From: Candidatus Latescibacterota bacterium
Lineage (GTDB): Bacteria; JAAXHH01; JACQVL01
DNA: 27,858 nucleotides
Direction of reading: 5' to 3'
NCBI GenBank assembly: GCA_016209865.1
Contig: JACQVL010000227.1
Span: 1-27,858, forward strand
Part shown: in pieces, positions 16,077 through 24,158 of the stretch
Numbering within the stretch: the stretch's first letter is position 1
Layout of the letters: the number at the start of each line of letters is the position of its first letter
The notes under the pieces: model-generated
What the model saw: only the letters and a program-made list of their open reading frames with translations
The model's database searches: none
What the model was told of the DNA's origin: nothing
Position numbers and translations under genes: made by a program

Positions 16077-16144
16077 GTAGGGGCGAAGCATTCGCTTTAC
16101 GCTTCGAGGCCCCCGATTGCCGTTTGCGAATGCTTCGCCCATAC
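16077..16144. repeat. Palindromic dispersed element, copy 1 (68 bp)
   Basis: Left arm GTAGGGGCGAAGCATTCGC (16077-16095) and right arm 16126-16144, whose reverse complement matches 18 of 19 bases, around a 30-bp unconserved centre. It lies between the aminotransferase and permease genes and ends 12 bp before the permease ATG. Confidence 0.85.
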
Positions 16145-16156
16145 GAGGGGCCCCAC

Positions 16157-17548
16157 ATGGCTGATGCCCCCGTCAGCGCCGGGGAAGGGCGGTTTGAGCT
16201 GGAGACGGAGCTCGCGCGCGACCTCGGCCTGCTGTCCGCCACGACGATCATCATCGGGGGGATCATCGGCTCCGGCATCTTCGGCGCGCCCGCCGGCATC
16301 GCCAAACAGCTCGGCTCGCCGGGGCTGATCATGCTCGTCTGGGTCATCGGGGGCATCCTGTCGTTCTGCGGGGCGGTCTGTTTCGCCGAACTGGGCGGGA
16401 TGATCCCCCGGACGGGCGGGCAGTTCATCTACCTGCGGCAGGCGTACCCTCCGATCATCGCGTTCCTGTACGGCTGGACCGAGGTGTACATGATCTCGGC
16501 GGCGTCGGTCGCAGCGATCGCCGTCGTGTTCACGAGTTACCTCGGTTACTTTCTTCCGGCGATCTCCCCGGACAACCCCCTTCTCACGATCGGCGGGTTC
16601 GTCCTCTCGACCCAGCACGCGGTCATACTCGCCTGCGTCATCTTCCTCGGAGCCGTCAATTATTTCGGGGTCCGGTTCGGCGGGTTCGTCCAGAACCTGT
16701 TCACGATCGCGAAGGTGACGGCGTTAGGCGGGCTGGTGCTGGTGGTGGCGGCGGCCGGGGGCGAGTGGGGACACTTCAGGCCGTTGCTGCCTGAGAGCCC
16801 GCAGCCCGGCCTTATGGAAGCGTTCGGGGCAGCGATGATCGGGACGATGTTCGCGTACAACGGCTGGGCGAGCGCGAACATGGTGACGGGGGAGATCAAA
16901 GACCCGCAACGCCAGCTCCCCCGCGCGATTTTCGTCGGCCTCTTCGTCTGCATCGCCGTCTATTTAGCCGTCAATTGGTCGTTCATCTATGTGATGGCGG
17001 TCGAGGAGATTGCCGCCTCCCCGCGCATCGCCGCCGACGTGGCGGAGCGGGTCGTCGGTCCGATCGGCGGCTCCCTCATCTCCTTCGCGGTGATGATCTC
17101 CACGTTCGGGACGATCAACGCCAACATGCTGTCCCCGCCCCGGATCATCTACGCGATGGCGAAGGAGGGGCTGTTCTTCCGGTGGCTCAATTATGTCCAT
17201 CCCGTCTACCGGACGCCGTCGCGGTCGATCGTCGCGCTCACCGTCTGGGCGTCACTCTGGACGTTCCTCGGCTCGTTCCAGGCGATCGTCGATGCGTTCG
17301 CGTACTCTCTGTACACGTTCTACAGCCTCTCCGTCATCAGCCTGTTCCTCGTCCGCCGGAAGTACCCGATCGCCGTCCGTCCGGTGAAAGCCTGGGGGTA
17401 CCCGGTCACGCCCATCATCTTCCTCGCCATCTCCGCCTGGTACGTCAGCACGGTGCTGATCTTCAAGACGCGGGAATCCCTGCCTGGCTTAGCGTTCCTG
17501 GCGGTCGGGGTCGTGGTGTATGTCGTCTGGTTCCGGAAGACGAGGTAG
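16157..17548 (+). CDS. APC superfamily amino-acid permease
   Basis: A 463-residue inner-membrane transporter with about twelve hydrophobic spans. The APC hallmark GGIIGSGIFGAPAGI lies in the first span (~31-45), and the intracellular segment GEIKDPQRQLPRAI in the middle is also typical. The start ATG at 16157 (MADAPVS) follows GAGGGG; upstream in-frame residues derive from the palindromic repeat. Substrate class is probably neutral or small amino acids but cannot be specified. It likely partners the upstream PLP enzyme. Its stop codon TAG lies inside the terminal GTAGGGG of the next repeat copy. Confidence 0.88.
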   Translation: MADAPVSAGEGRFELETELARDLGLLSATTIIIGGIIGSGIFGAPAGIAKQLGSPGLIMLVWVIGGILSFCGAVCFAELGGMIPRTGGQFIYLRQAYPPIIAFLYGWTEVYMISAASVAAIAVVFTSYLGYFLPAISPDNPLLTIGGFVLSTQHAVILACVIFLGAVNYFGVRFGGFVQNLFTIAKVTALGGLVLVVAAAGGEWGHFRPLLPESPQPGLMEAFGAAMIGTMFAYNGWASANMVTGEIKDPQRQLPRAIFVGLFVCIAVYLAVNWSFIYVMAVEEIAASPRIAADVAERVVGPIGGSLISFAVMISTFGTINANMLSPPRIIYAMAKEGLFFRWLNYVHPVYRTPSRSIVALTVWASLWTFLGSFQAIVDAFAYSLYTFYSLSVISLFLVRRKYPIAVRPVKAWGYPVTPIIFLAISAWYVSTVLIFKTRESLPGLAFLAVGVVVYVVWFRKTR

Positions 17549-17628: not shown

Positions 17629-17644
17629 TGCTAAAAAATTAGCA
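17629..17644. promoter_or_regulatory. Operator-like palindrome 1 upstream of the blaI-type gene
   Basis: TGCTAA-AAAA-TTAGCA, a perfect inverted repeat ending 8 bp before the -35 box. Likely bound by the downstream BlaI-family repressor (inference). Confidence 0.65.
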
Positions 17645-17652
17645 TTTTTTGC

Positions 17653-17681
17653 TTGACATCGCACGTCCTTTATGCTAAATT
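17653..17681 (+). promoter_or_regulatory. Promoter of the BlaI-M56-repeat protein operon
   Basis: TTGACA (17653-17658), 17-bp spacer, TAAATT (17676-17681). The -10 box lies inside the second palindrome, so repressor binding there would block RNA polymerase. Confidence 0.6.
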
Positions 17682-17688
17682 TTTAACA
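17673..17688. promoter_or_regulatory. Operator-like palindrome 2 over the -10 box
   Basis: TGCTAA-ATTT-TTAACA, arms matching at five of six positions and sharing the TGCTAA half-site with palindrome 1. The two centres are 44 bp apart, about four helical turns, on the same DNA face. Confidence 0.65.
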
Positions 17689-17768
17689 TATCCTCAGTAC
17701 GTTTAAGATAGGGAGGTTGAATCCATAGAGGACAGGCAGTTTTGGGAACACGACGAAAGGAGTCTTCG

Positions 17769-18158
17769 GTGGCGAAACCGTTGGACAAAGGGCTGAGTCG
17801 GCGCGAACGGCAGATCATGGATATTCTGTACCGGCGCGGCCGTGCGACCTCCTCAGAAGTCCTGGCGGAGATGCCCGATCCTCCGACCTATTCTGCGGTG
17901 CGCGCCATGTTGAGGCTCCTGGAAGAGAAAAAACACGTGGCGCATGAGGAAGAGGGACTGCGGTACGTGTACCGACCGACGGTCTCTCGAGAGCAGGCCC
18001 GAAAATCCGCGCTGAAGCATCTCTTGGGGACGTTCTTTGACGGCTCGGCGACGCAAGCCGTCGCCGCCCTCTTGGACCTTCCGGATGCGAATCTGTCGCC
18101 GCGGGACCTGGATCGGCTGGCTCGATTGATCGACCAGGCCAGAAAGGAGGGACGCTAA
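17769..18158 (+). CDS. BlaI/MecI-family transcriptional repressor
   Basis: A 129-residue winged-helix repressor of the BlaI/MecI/CopY family. SRRERQIMDILYRRGRATSSEVLAEMPDPPTYSAVRAMLRLLEEKKHVAHEE spans the DNA-binding domain, and the C-terminal LKHLLGTFFDGSATQAVAALL is the dimerisation part. A GTG start at 17769 is chosen because AAAGGAG lies 6 nt upstream; a TTG at 17742 is in frame but lacks this. In the classic systems the partner protease triggers cleavage of the repressor to induce the operon. Only 2 bp separate its stop from the M56 gene. No beta-lactamase or penicillin-binding-protein gene is nearby. Confidence 0.9.
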   Translation: MAKPLDKGLSRRERQIMDILYRRGRATSSEVLAEMPDPPTYSAVRAMLRLLEEKKHVAHEEEGLRYVYRPTVSREQARKSALKHLLGTFFDGSATQAVAALLDLPDANLSPRDLDRLARLIDQARKEGR

Positions 18159-18160
18159 CG

Positions 18161-20065
18161 ATGATCGTCCTCTTCGACGCTATCGCCAGATCAGGGCTTC
18201 CTCTCACCTGGCTGACACTGGCATGGGAGGTGTTGTTCAAAGGACTGTGTCTGCTCGTCGTGGCGGGTGTCTGCGGGCTGGCGCTCCGACGCGCCTCCGC
18301 CGCGATACGTCATCTTGTCTGGACGGCGACACTGAGCAGCCTCATCGCCCTTCCAGTATTGTCGGGCCTCTTGCCGAATTGGGATCTTCCGGGATTACCA
18401 GAAGTTTTCAGTTCAAAACATGAGACGGCGTCAGTTGCTCTCCCCCGTTCTCCTCTCCTCGTCTCCTCGTCAGACGCGCTTCCCGGCGGGTCGATGATCG
18501 ACGCACGGGCTACAGAGGCCCCAAGACCATCCGGGTTCTCATCCCTTCTCCCTGCGACAGCTTCGCGTCCCCGGTCATGGGAGACCTGGGCGTTCGTCGT
18601 CTGGCTCACCGGGGCCTTAGCCGTGCTTACACGATTCGGCCTGGGAACGATCCGGCTCTGGGGGATGACGCGTCGCGCCCAACCGATCGTGGATGAGGAA
18701 TGGATCGGGCTGGGGCATCGACTCGCCGCCCGACTTGGGCTCGCCGCGCTTCCTCGGATGCTGGTCAGCGATCAGGCGACCATACCGTTCACGTGGGGGC
18801 TCTGGCGGTCGATGGTTTTCTTCCCTCGTGAAGCGGTCGAATGGCCTGTTGAACGCCGACAGATTGTGCTGGCGCATGAGTTCGCGCACATTAAACGGCG
18901 GGATTGTCTGACGCAGATGGTCGCCCAGGTCGCGGGCGCGCTCTACTGGTTCAACCCGTTGGTCTGGCTCATCGCGCGCCAACATCGGATAGAACGAGAA
19001 CGCGCATGCGATGATCAGGTCCTGCAGTCAGGGACAAAAGCGTCGTGCTACGCGGATGCCCTCCTGGAGATGGCACGATCGCTGCATCGCGCGCAGTTCG
19101 GTTCGTTCGCCACGGTCTGGATCGCGCGCCGGTCGCACCTGGAAGGTCGGCTGCTGGCCATCCTTGATCCCCGCATGAATCGTCGGGGCACGACGCGGTG
19201 GGCGATCCTGCTCGTCGCAGTCTTGGGGTTCGGTCTGGTCGTCCCATTCGCTACCATGCATCCCACCTCGCGCGCGGATGCGGTCACGCTCGTGAGCGAT
19301 ACCCGTTCACCTGCTCAGCCTGCGATGCCATCCTCCCCTGTTGCACGTCACACGATGCCCGCCTCGTCCGCGCCGTTATCACCCTCCGCGCAGCCGTCCT
19401 CTCAGACAATCCGGGTGACAAAGCAAGAGGCAGATGAAGAGGATTCTGGCGATTTTATCGATGAGATGGAGTCGTCAGGCTATCGCAATCTGTCGGTGGA
19501 TCAACTCGTCAAGCTAAAGATGCAAGGGGTGACGCCCGCGTTTATCCGCCAGATGAGAGCGTTGGGATACGATCATCTCTCTACGGATGCCCTGGTGGCT
19601 CTGCGAATTCACGGCGTCACTCCGGCGTACGTCGGTCAGATGAAGTCTGTACTCCGGCGCAATCCGACTGCTCAGGAACTGGTCGCATTCCGGGCTCAGA
19701 ATATCACTCCGGAGTTCATTCGGGAAACCCGGCGGGCTTTCGGGGAAGACCTCTCCCTCGATCAGATCGTCAAAATCAGGATTGCGGATATCACCCCGGA
19801 GTTCATCGACGGACTGGCGTCGGTCGGCTTCAAAGATGTGCCGGTCGAAAAACTGGTCTCGGCGAAGTTACAGGGCGTCACACCAGACTACATTCGAGCC
19901 CTCCAGGAGCAGGGGTATCCCAACCTGTCCATCGATCAGTACATCAAAGCCCGGACGTTAGGCGTCACGCCCGAATTCATCGAGGCGACGCGGGCGCGTG
20001 GATTCCATGGTCTCTCGATCGATCAGCTCATCTCGCTCAAGATGTCGGGGATTCTGCGGGAATAG
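18161..20065 (+). CDS. M56 (BlaR1/MecR1-like) membrane protease with periplasmic 29-residue repeats
   Basis: A 634-residue integral-membrane zinc protease. N-terminal hydrophobic spans (about 20-42 and 50-70) are followed by a linker, a further span (~142-160), and the protease core with HEFAH at 239-243 and IERERACDD (~277-285), which would supply the third zinc ligand. After a last span (~346-365) and a Ser/Pro-rich linker come six full and one partial repeats of 29 residues (~431-634), pattern GY..LS.D.LV.LK..GVTP.FI. In BlaR1 the corresponding C-terminal part is a penicillin-binding sensor; here no such domain exists. GGAGG precedes the ATG. It probably senses a periplasmic signal through the repeats and relieves BlaI repression (inference). 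Confidence 0.88.
   Translation: MIVLFDAIARSGLPLTWLTLAWEVLFKGLCLLVVAGVCGLALRRASAAIRHLVWTATLSSLIALPVLSGLLPNWDLPGLPEVFSSKHETASVALPRSPLLVSSSDALPGGSMIDARATEAPRPSGFSSLLPATASRPRSWETWAFVVWLTGALAVLTRFGLGTIRLWGMTRRAQPIVDEEWIGLGHRLAARLGLAALPRMLVSDQATIPFTWGLWRSMVFFPREAVEWPVERRQIVLAHEFAHIKRRDCLTQMVAQVAGALYWFNPLVWLIARQHRIERERACDDQVLQSGTKASCYADALLEMARSLHRAQFGSFATVWIARRSHLEGRLLAILDPRMNRRGTTRWAILLVAVLGFGLVVPFATMHPTSRADAVTLVSDTRSPAQPAMPSSPVARHTMPASSAPLSPSAQPSSQTIRVTKQEADEEDSGDFIDEMESSGYRNLSVDQLVKLKMQGVTPAFIRQMRALGYDHLSTDALVALRIHGVTPAYVGQMKSVLRRNPTAQELVAFRAQNITPEFIRETRRAFGEDLSLDQIVKIRIADITPEFIDGLASVGFKDVPVEKLVSAKLQGVTPDYIRALQEQGYPNLSIDQYIKARTLGVTPEFIEATRARGFHGLSIDQLISLKMSGILRE
19451..20062 (+). repeat. 29-residue coding repeats of the M56 protein
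   Basis: Seven units in strict 29-residue spacing, with consensus positions G4, L8, S9, D11, L13, G20, V21, T22, P23, F25, I26. The units are well diverged from one another, so this array is older than the one in the companion gene. Confidence 0.8.
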
Positions 20066-20120
20066 ATCAAGCGTAAGCGGTCGGGGGATGACCAGCACCG
20101 TGAAGAGAGGGGAGGGAGCT

Positions 20121-21314
20121 ATGAAGACGCATCATCAGAGAAAGATAGTAGGGCTTGGGGTATTGCTGGGTGTCGGTCTGGTGATTTGGATGTTTGCTCT
20201 CACCTCCAACGTGGAGCCATCCCGTATGACTCAAGCGCAAGATCGCGCGGATACCTCGTTTTCAGGGCAATGGTTGATCGAATTCGACTCCGGGATGCCC
20301 GATAAAATCCGCATGACGTTGATCCGGTTAACGAAGTCGTTCGGTCGTGACGATCGGCGGTTTTCCCTGCCATTTCTGCCAGACCAACTGCCGGGCTTGA
20401 CACGCACGCAGGTCATATCCTCCGGCTCTACGGTGCACTTTCAACTCCGGCGAGACGCCGGGACGTTCGACTGCGAAGGATGGTTTAAGGATGGGGACGG
20501 CTCCGGCCATTTTACCTTCGTGGCGAGCCCTGAGTTTGTGGCGGAACTGCGGAAACGCGGGATCGGAGCTCCGTCGGACAAGGAACAGTTTTCGATGGCG
20601 TTACACGACGTCAGCCTGGCGCTGATCGAGGAACTGTCCCGCCAGGGCTATGCGCAGCCGTCGCTCGACCAACTCGTGCGCCTGGGGGAGCACGGGGTGA
20701 GTCTGGACTTCGTCCAGGACTTGAAACACTATGGGTACCGCGCCGGCTCCATCGATGAGTTGATCCGCCTTCGGGATCATGGCGTGAACTCTGAATTTAT
20801 TCAGGGCATGAAGGAATTGGGGTATCGCGACCTGTCGCTCGATGAGCTGGTGAAAGCCAAAGACCACGGGGTTAACACCGACTTTATCCGAGAGATGGAG
20901 CGATTGGAGTATGGCCGCCTGTCGCTCGGAGACTTAGTGAGAGTCAAAGACCATGGAGTCAACGTCGACTTTATCCGGGAGATGGAGCGGTTAGGGTATG
21001 GTCGTCTGCCGCTCGAGGAGCTAGTGAGAATCAAAGACCATGGGGTCAATCTGGATTTTATTAAGGGCCTTGATCGATTAGGATATAAGAACCTGTCCCT
21101 TGACGACTTAGTAGGTGCCAGGGATCACGGGGTGAACGTCGAGTATATCCGAGACCTTGAAGCCATAGGATACAAAGGGCTTTCCCTCGATCAACTGAAG
21201 CGGATGAAGGATCACGGCGTGACTGCCTCGTTCATTCGGGACATACGCAAGCATGGCCTCAAAGACCTCTCGATCGATGAGTTGATCAGGTTGAAGGATA
21301 GCGGGTTCAGATGA
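20121..21314 (+). CDS. Membrane-anchored protein with 29-residue repeats, partner of the M56 protease
   Basis: A 397-residue protein of unknown function. The ATG at 20121 follows GGAGGGAGCT. One hydrophobic span (about 9-28) anchors it or acts as an uncleaved signal, putting the rest in the periplasm. Residues ~48-135 form a small beta-rich-looking domain (SGQWLIEF, FDCEGWFKDGDGSGHFTF). From ~144 to the end run eight full or degenerate repeats plus a partial, each 29 residues, with pattern GY..LSLDEL...KDHGVN.DFI..M. These are the same repeats as in the M56 protein. It lies 55 bp downstream in the same operon, so it may bind the protease or its ligand. I know no characterised homologue. Confidence 0.85.
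   Translation: MKTHHQRKIVGLGVLLGVGLVIWMFALTSNVEPSRMTQAQDRADTSFSGQWLIEFDSGMPDKIRMTLIRLTKSFGRDDRRFSLPFLPDQLPGLTRTQVISSGSTVHFQLRRDAGTFDCEGWFKDGDGSGHFTFVASPEFVAELRKRGIGAPSDKEQFSMALHDVSLALIEELSRQGYAQPSLDQLVRLGEHGVSLDFVQDLKHYGYRAGSIDELIRLRDHGVNSEFIQGMKELGYRDLSLDELVKAKDHGVNTDFIREMERLEYGRLSLGDLVRVKDHGVNVDFIREMERLGYGRLPLEELVRIKDHGVNLDFIKGLDRLGYKNLSLDDLVGARDHGVNVEYIRDLEAIGYKGLSLDQLKRMKDHGVTASFIRDIRKHGLKDLSIDELIRLKDSGFR
20550..21311 (+). repeat. 29-residue coding repeats of the companion protein, with recent 87-bp duplications
   Basis: Around nine units. Copies near 20880, 20967 and 21054 are almost identical at the DNA level (for example the GACTTTATCCG-GAGATGGAGCG string at 20880 and again exactly 87 bp later), indicating recent tandem duplication or gene conversion. 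Confidence 0.82.
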
Positions 21315-21330: not shown

Positions 21331-21370
21331 CGCCTACGCAATCAGGGCGCGACGCCGCCTCGCCCCTACG
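21331..21370. repeat. Decayed copy related to the palindromic element, at the hutH stop
   Basis: The minus strand reads CGTAGGGGCGAGGCGGCGTC from 21370, sharing GTAGGGGCGAGGC with copy 2. The hutH stop TAG (21366-21368) lies within it. The partner arm is poorly preserved. Confidence 0.5.
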
Positions 21371-22984: not shown

Positions 22985-23048
22985 GACTTTCTTGTAGAGG
23001 AAATCACAGACCTTTCCCTCGCGGAAGCCCATGACTTCAGTATTGTCA

Positions 23049-23077
23049 TTGACAACAATTCTCAATGTTGTTATATT
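23049..23077 (+). promoter_or_regulatory. Promoter of tnpB, likely giving a leaderless mRNA
   Basis: TTGACA (23049-23054), 17-bp spacer, TATATT (23072-23077). The expected start point (23083-23086) coincides with the tnpB ATG at 23085, and no ribosome site precedes that ATG. An 8-bp inverted repeat, TTCTCAAT (23059-23066) and ATTGAGAA (23075-23082), overlaps the spacer and -10. Confidence 0.55.
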
Positions 23078-23084
23078 GAGAACC

Positions 23085-24158
23085 ATGAAACAAACGCTTG
23101 CTCTGAAACTCCAACCGTCCCCCGATCAGGCGGATGCCTTGACCCGGACGATGACCGCGTTCAACGCGGCCTGTAACGCGATTGCGGAGGTTGCGTATCG
23201 GGAACGGTCTGCGAACAAGGTCAAGCTCCAAAAACTTGTCTACTACGACATCCGCACGCGCTTCGACCTGTCAGCTCAGTTGACGGTTCGCGCTATCGCC
23301 AAGGTCGCAGAGGCGTACAAGCGGGACAAGACTCGGCAGCCGCGTTTCCGTCCCACTGGAGCCATCACCTACGACCAGCGCATCCTGAGTTTCAAGGGGC
23401 TGGATCGGGTCTCGCTCCTGACCCTGGACGGACGCCAACTGATCTCGTTCATCTATGGGATGTATCAGGCGGCCCGACTGGATCGCATCAAAGGACAGGC
23501 TGATCTCGTGGTCTGTGATGAGGTGTTTTATCTGTACGCAACGATTGATGTGCCGGAGCCTCCCCTGACAGAGCCATCCGAATTCCTGGGCGTGGATTTG
23601 GGCATCGTCAATCTCGCCACGGACTCCGATGGGACAGTTCAGAGCGGGAAAACCGTTCAATCGGTGCGGCATCACCATGCTCGTCTCCGCCAGAAACTCC
23701 AATCCAAAGGCACAAAGAGTGCGAAGCGCCTGTTGAAGAAACGACGGCGCAAGGAAACGCGCTTTCAACGGGATGTAAACCACTGCCTCAGTAAGCGGTT
23801 GGTTGCGATAGCCCAAGACACTGGACGCGGCCTTGCCCTGGAAGACCTGACGGGCATCCGGGACCAGATACGGTTGAGACGGGCGCAGCGACGCAGCCAG
23901 CACAGGTGGGCCTTCCGTCAACTCCGGGCGTTTATCGAATACAAGGCCCGGTTGGCGGGCGTCTCGGTGGTCCTGGTCAATCCCCGGCATACCTCGCGGA
24001 TGTGCCCGGCCTGTGGCCATTGTGAGAAAGCGAATCGCCGGTCTCAATCCCGGTTCTCCTGTGTCGCCTGTTCGTTCGCTGCGAACGCCGATGTTGTCGC
24101 TGCCATGAACATCGGCAGGGCTGCTGTCAATCAGCCACACGCGGATGCCGCCGCCTGA
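23085..24158 (+). CDS. tnpB: TnpB RNA-guided nuclease / IS605 OrfB-type protein
   Basis: A 357-residue TnpB. All RuvC residues are present: Asp171 (GVDLGIVNLAT), Glu253 (LALEDLTGIR) and Asp336 (NADVVAAMNIG). The zinc finger is intact, with Cys307, Cys310, Cys326 and Cys329. The N-terminal MKQTLALKLQPSPDQADAL is the usual TnpB start, so ATG 23085 is preferred over the upstream in-frame one at 23031. TnpB proteins cut DNA guided by an RNA made from the element's right end, next to a short TAM. Nothing indicates inactivation, and the size is compact. Composition is close to neighbouring genes. Confidence 0.92.
   Translation: MKQTLALKLQPSPDQADALTRTMTAFNAACNAIAEVAYRERSANKVKLQKLVYYDIRTRFDLSAQLTVRAIAKVAEAYKRDKTRQPRFRPTGAITYDQRILSFKGLDRVSLLTLDGRQLISFIYGMYQAARLDRIKGQADLVVCDEVFYLYATIDVPEPPLTEPSEFLGVDLGIVNLATDSDGTVQSGKTVQSVRHHHARLRQKLQSKGTKSAKRLLKKRRRKETRFQRDVNHCLSKRLVAIAQDTGRGLALEDLTGIRDQIRLRRAQRRSQHRWAFRQLRAFIEYKARLAGVSVVLVNPRHTSRMCPACGHCEKANRRSQSRFSCVACSFAANADVVAAMNIGRAAVNQPHADAAA

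Follow-up and report, generated by a model that had tools for sequence, protein, structure and literature searches.

In the BlaR1/BlaI system, the fold of the sensor is also that of the proteins it induces, the beta-lactamases. BlaR1 has been described with an N-out, C-out topology and a protease facing the cytosol, and cleavage of BlaI upon signal was demonstrated for BlaR1 of Staphylococcus aureus (PMC9834060). Here, we describe a related locus at positions 17629-21314 of a contig of 27,858 nucleotides (JACQVL010000227.1; the whole contig is referred to as the window) from a Candidatus Latescibacterota bacterium, in which three co-directional genes follow a single promoter in the order blaI, M56 protease and repeat-bearing partner (Table 1). 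Our results confirm a preliminary description of this DNA as one operon with these three products, and suggest, with a probability of about 0.55, that it is a self-regulating BlaI-M56 switch in which a ligand-binding fold is common to the sensor and to the exported protein that is induced. The signal is probably an envelope or outside cue and not a beta-lactam. The operon, its operators, the protease motif and the repeat solenoids are read from the sequence, as is the placement of the partner gene under BlaI-type operators in relatives.

The M56 protein has an intact HEFAH motif at residues 239-243, and H239, E240, H243, R279, E280 and D284 are invariant across 37 homologues. Transmembrane-type helices lie at about residues 16-41, 47-70, 139-172 and 345-366, and the protein fits the BlaR1 topology, since three of them precede the protease and one comes after. 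Its AlphaFold2 model, confident for the core and the repeats and not for the linker at residues 366-427, matched S. aureus BlaR1 in Foldseek (8exr_A, TMt 0.60, root-mean-square deviation 3.3 Å). The NCBIfam BlaR1 model scored 90.9 bits against a cutoff of 400 and matched the protease part only. A Pfam search found no penicillin-binding family in the C-terminus, in agreement with the preliminary description, and no beta-lactam-binding fold was found in the repeat region; instead, the C-terminus is a solenoid with six clear repeat copies spaced exactly 29 residues apart. The proposal that these repeats form the sensor is supported by their position where the BlaR1 sensor sits, with an M56 core and membrane layout that are alike. 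Partner and sensor are linked by M56 proteins fused to a complete partner module in Bacteroidota and in one Acidobacteriota locus (L119).

The same repeats had been noticed in the partner, and the two arrays indeed align at E=5.8e-36, well above what chance would give. The partner has at least seven copies, and its AlphaFold2 model, built on a homologue alignment, reached a mean predicted local distance difference test score (pLDDT) of 91; in both proteins the repeats are modelled as two short helices each, with pLDDT mostly 92-98. The commonest repeat period is 29. HEAT profiles had no match in the window proteins, and HEAT is outside the 25 commonest families of 62 partner homologues. The window partner had no match in Pfam, the 62 homologues had no consistent Pfam match to the beta domain, and a structure search with this domain returned weak matches only. 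The partner had also been called membrane-anchored, and this is not established: most homologues have a predicted signal peptide followed by a plausible cleavage site for signal peptidase I, and the N-terminal helix of the window copy could be a signal or an anchor.

Position 27 is mostly R or K in partner repeats and K/R in M56 repeats, and position 29 is mostly H in the former and H or Q in the latter; the repeat search profile favours H and biases these percentages, though the contrast between the classes appears under one profile. The strongly conserved partner positions are G1, V2, R/K27 and H29. When a repeat was compared with those of other loci, its nearest neighbour belonged to its own class in 457 of 466 cases for the partner and 166 of 222 for M56, counts in which the larger partner class is favoured. 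M56 and partner repeats are thus one family with two distinct sub-classes, and the arrays look old and distinct because the nearest repeats are mostly of their own class. We also considered whether repeats had recently been copied from one gene to the other; this is unsupported, as the repeats of a protein's own partner are not closer than those of other partners. Among the 11 operons that passed the filter, 9 of 10 other partners were as close to the window M56 repeats as its own, or closer.

Control by BlaI is suggested by the DNA around the promoter. Paired inverted repeats with the same core stand upstream of blaI in 39 of 47 regions, against 0.02 expected from shuffles; these are not 39 independent events, because many of the loci are close relatives. 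In the window, the centres of the two operators are 44 bp apart and TTGACA sits between them, as in other loci; the second operator failed the test of the script and was identified by eye only. The promoter pattern, found once against 1.5 expected by shuffling, is weak alone. The operators differ between groups: TACGAANNNNTTCGTA around TTGACA in Myxococcota and most Acidobacteriota, ACTAATNNATTAGT in Bacteroidota, and TGCTAANNNNTTAGCA in the window and its chassis relatives, a class shared with seven BlaI-M56 loci (L031, L081, L100, L103-L106). At sequence level, then, BlaI's own promoter carries predicted inverted-repeat operators. A genome-wide search with GCTAANNNNTTARC gave only chance-level matches elsewhere in the 83%-complete window genome. 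BlaI itself carries the Penicillinase_R winged-helix domain, and GTG 17769 is its likelier start than the TTG at 17742 chosen by the open reading frame (ORF) finder, because AAAGGAG stands 6 nucleotides upstream.

The double operator also allows regulon members to be found. It was present in 19 of 19 genomes searched, 1-3 times each and usually once, and a control pattern never was. In two genomes it stands directly before an unlinked partner gene, about 2.5 Mb (G152, L212) and about 2.8 Mb (G160, L240) from BlaI-M56. Other double operators lie directly upstream of a gene for an exported DUF5916/CBM9 protein (G043, G140), of a gene for an exported PF00144 hydrolase (G159, G130; 96% identical), before a DEAD-box helicase ORF with an exported-looking N-terminus (G043, G140), and upstream of another BlaI-M56 pair (G123). 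Since BlaI-type operators persist away from the operon, we read the partner and DUF5916 genes as outputs; in relatives, the partner is on this sequence evidence a predicted output of the switch, and the DUF5916/CBM9 protein is a candidate common output. In L040, L044, L055 and L063, a DUF5916 gene also takes fourth place after the trio. No BlaI-type operators were seen upstream of the stand-alone partners of our first scan.

An earlier view of a closed circuit with the operon as sole target, drawn from a single 16-mer operator in four genomes, was overturned by the unlinked partner, DUF5916 and PF00144 targets. Single relaxed operator sites were rejected as targets: the 20 inspected were mostly inside open frames and look like chance. 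The PF00144 serine hydrolase genes lie at L241 2810-4308 and L242 5354-3894 (minus strand). The first 180 residues of the helicase ORF look exported (L244 1543-3895, L245 3817-6199), and it is possibly a fusion. DUF5916/CBM9 exported proteins recur with switches (L243 2811-5547, L246, L040, L044, L055, L063, L187, L189, L202, L082).

The preliminary description asked whether the repeat recurs only beside BlaI/M56 pairs. With three partner homologues as seeds, a scan of species genomes yielded 75 loci, which were classified with purpose-built profiles. The trio is present in 42 of them (34 in the gene order of the window and 8 whose M56 also holds the beta domain of the partner); the others are 2 fusions without a separate partner, 3 M56-partner pairs truncated at contig ends, 1 BlaI-M56 lacking a partner, 25 partners with no flanking BlaI/M56, a few of them contig-edge cases so that about 21 are real, and 2 others. 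Trios occur in at least seven phyla (Acidobacteriota, Myxococcota, Bacteroidota, Rhodothermota, Pseudomonadota, Eiseniibacteriota and Fidelibacterota). A partner-seeded scan cannot alone show that repeat-type M56 accompanies a partner. A second search, with the M56 C-terminus as seed, covered 39 genomes of one myxobacterial family. A repeat-type M56 was present in 16 of them; 12 have the partner next to it, 2 have an unlinked partner behind a double operator of its own, and in 2 the partner was not found (G138 and G153, with no partner beside M56 and no second double operator, and no genome-wide partner search made there). The trio was not found elsewhere in the window's own taxonomic order, and no plasmid copies of the system were found. 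No neighbour genes beyond the trio are common across phyla, except DUF5916 in a few. In the same order, one locus has a partner-type gene broken in pieces, without nearby BlaI/M56 (L124, G013:C18).

The phylogeny of M56 cores places the window protein among those bearing other sensors, away from the main repeat-type group of Myxococcota and Acidobacteriota. A single clade for all repeat-type M56 was rejected (approximately unbiased test, p about 1e-61), and the rejection held when the fast Bacteroidota rows were removed. The window partner forms a strongly supported group with stand-alone partners (100/97), apart from the main trio partners, and one set of free Mucilaginibacter partner copies falls within the fused-sensor clade of the partner tree. 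Because the repeat-type M56 cores do not form one clade and the window partner sits elsewhere in the partner tree, these phylogenies indicate that the sensor-partner pairing arose or was exchanged more than once, on different chassis; the number of origins is unsure, since the M56 tree has long branches.

We infer that BlaI dimers on the two operators around the promoter would keep the operon off, and that the M56 protein would expose its zinc protease to the cytoplasm and extend its repeat solenoid into the periplasm. Contact of the solenoid with its ligand would activate the protease, BlaI would be cleaved and the operon switched on, and the exported partner would be the induced output, carrying the same type of solenoid. 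Sensor and partner probably recognise the same ligand class, since both share the solenoid fold, as do the BlaR1 sensor and beta-lactamases. Several observations weigh against this reading. The operator evidence for the partner as output stems from relatives, outside the lineage of the window. Because the repeats of M56 and partner fall into separate sub-classes, a shared ligand is not assured. In L081, an operon with a repeat-type M56, the 1.3 kb covered downstream contains no partner, and in L195 a HEAT-like M56 is followed by a PF00144 serine hydrolase and not by a HEAT protein. A co-sensor role for the partner would predict fusion of a whole partner to M56 just as well.

This last point leads to the alternative that the partner binds the M56 solenoid by repeat-repeat contact, either holding the protease off until ligand titrates it or delivering the ligand, with feedback arising from the shared promoter. 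It would explain the common repeat type, the complete partner modules fused to M56, the free Mucilaginibacter copies inside the fused-sensor clade and the recurrence of the pairing on different M56 lineages, and it remains a serious rival because the whole-partner fusions exist; we nevertheless consider it rather unlikely. About 21 partner loci lack flanking BlaI/M56, and the M56 proteins detected there mostly have other sensors, and, in the 11 operons compared, M56 repeats are no closer to those of their own partner than to others. The preliminary description allowed the partner only these roles, as ligand presenter or as lock, which is unsupported as worded, given the same roughly 21 loci and the unlinked partner that keeps a BlaI double operator in two genomes.

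A conventional sensor of beta-lactams or cell-wall damage, with the repeats as no more than a substitute for the penicillin-binding domain and hydrolases as main targets, is highly improbable. The absence of a linked resistance gene, stated in the preliminary description, stands for the window, where no beta-lactamase or PBP2a gene lies within the operon (the host genome is 83%-complete); it does not extend to two relatives, in which the exported PF00144 hydrolase has the same double operator, and these hydrolases, with the one after BlaI-M56 in L195, are what such a sensor would predict. Yet no penicillin-binding family was matched in the repeats, the PF00144 protein has HSG where class C beta-lactamases have KTG, and non-hydrolases are the majority of double-operator targets. 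It is also very unlikely that tandem duplication in both genes has expanded the repeats as an incidental spacer with no part in sensing: the number of repeats does vary among homologues, as in many repeat proteins, but their strongly conserved positions, retention across many phyla and repeated association with the partner argue against this.

Table 1. Features of the blaI-M56-partner operon, with positions in the window.
Feature	Position	Strand	Basis
Upstream operator, perfect inverted repeat TGCTAAAAAATTAGCA	17629..17644	.	putative, inverted-repeat search
Sigma-70-like promoter, TTGACA - 17 nt - TAAATT, extended -10 TG	17653..17681	+	sequence
Downstream operator, imperfect inverted repeat TGCTAAATTTTTAACA, covers -10	17673..17688	.	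read by eye
BlaI/MecI/CopY-family repressor	17769..18158	+	PF03965 E=1.6e-27, whole domain
M56 (BlaR1-type) membrane zinc protease, 634 aa	18161..20065	+	PF05569 E=5.3e-32
29-aa repeat solenoid, M56 C-terminus, aa about 429-634, presumably periplasmic	19445..20062	+	repeat analysis, AlphaFold2
Exported partner, 397 aa: signal or anchor helix, beta domain, 29-aa repeats	20121..21314	+	sequence, AlphaFold2, homologues
Partner beta domain, aa 47-135, no Pfam family	20259..20525	+	AlphaFold2 model
Partner alpha-alpha solenoid of 29-aa repeats, aa 137-397	20529..21311	+	repeat analysis, AlphaFold2

The next gene after the partner encodes a convergent aromatic amino-acid lyase, ending at 21366, and an amino-acid permease gene lies upstream of the operon (16124-17548). 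Permease genes also adjoin the partner gene in Gemmatimonadota and one Acidobacteriota (L016, L017, L025, L026, L077), which may be coincidence. Elsewhere in the window, a gene for a KptA/Tpt1 RNA 2'-phosphotransferase (PF01885; 13814-14647, minus strand) stands beside an aminotransferase gene, and an ORF at 23031-24158, known from the ORF list only, resembles a TnpB-type protein by eye, with a CxxC...CxxC end. A search for defence systems gave a single marginal match and nothing more.

The genome of the window encodes a second BlaI-M56 operon (L183 2246-5638, G000:C52); its M56 bears HEAT repeats, and its third gene encodes an exported HEAT-repeat protein (PF13646 E=2.5e-44). Its operators are of the TACGAA..TTCGTA class, unlike those of the window, so the two switches should not cross-talk. 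In L185 and L186, an M56 with HEAT repeats is followed by two exported HEAT proteins each, and in L187 and L189 an SDYE-type M56 precedes a DUF5916 gene. That sensor and partner have matching folds is a tendency in two repeat classes, with few HEAT cases, and not a proven rule. A third BlaI-M56 in the same genome has another C-terminus (L184 1384-3390, G000:C44), M56 proteins of similar size occur in nearly all genomes of the order, and extracytoplasmic function (ECF) sigma operons with exported HEAT-repeat proteins were also seen (L198-L201, with L201 in the window's own genome).

No published account of a BlaI/M56/repeat-partner system was found in an open-access library, which misses most subscription papers. 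New here are the paired blaI operators, the unlinked partner as predicted output, the repeat-type M56 that do not form a clade and the second, HEAT, operon. A wider idea, which we offer tentatively and at somewhat less than even odds, is that BlaI-M56 is a general plug-in chassis whose outer sensor is a tethered copy of the exported protein it induces, with the 29-residue repeats, HEAT and BlaR1/beta-lactamase as three cases and the solenoids reading an extended envelope or environmental polymer. BlaR1/BlaI, mostly known as a resistance device, may be one case of a wider family of trans-envelope proteolytic switches, in which solenoid sensors would be exchangeable and matched by exported outputs. 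The trio is present in Myxococcus xanthus (L075), a species amenable to genetics, making the signal and the role of the partner directly testable, and both the beta domain and the 29-residue repeat are without a Pfam family.

Among known systems, BlaR1/BlaI and MecR1/MecI are alike in their BlaI-family repressor, HExxH M56 zinc protease, BlaR1-like transmembrane layout, C-terminal sensor and operators at the promoter. Unlike them, the window system has a solenoid sensor in place of a penicillin-binding one, no beta-lactamase or PBP2a gene in the operon, one co-directional operon rather than a divergon and a partner without Pfam family. Other BlaI-M56 pairs, with HEAT, TPR, SDYE or (by eye) CarboxypepD_reg/TonB_C-like C-termini, have the same chassis and operator classes and differ in sensor fold; in three HEAT versions an exported HEAT partner is present as well. 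The ECF sigma/anti-sigma operons likewise place an exported helical-repeat protein beside a membrane-linked regulator, but the regulator differs, with no M56 and no BlaI. The solenoids of transcription activator-like (TAL) effectors, BurrH and MTERF, which gave the best structural matches, also build a superhelix from short two-helix repeats (best VIA-align Z 7.8); with a root-mean-square deviation of 13.9 Å, this likeness is no better than expected for helical repeats, and the partner, unlike them, is exported.

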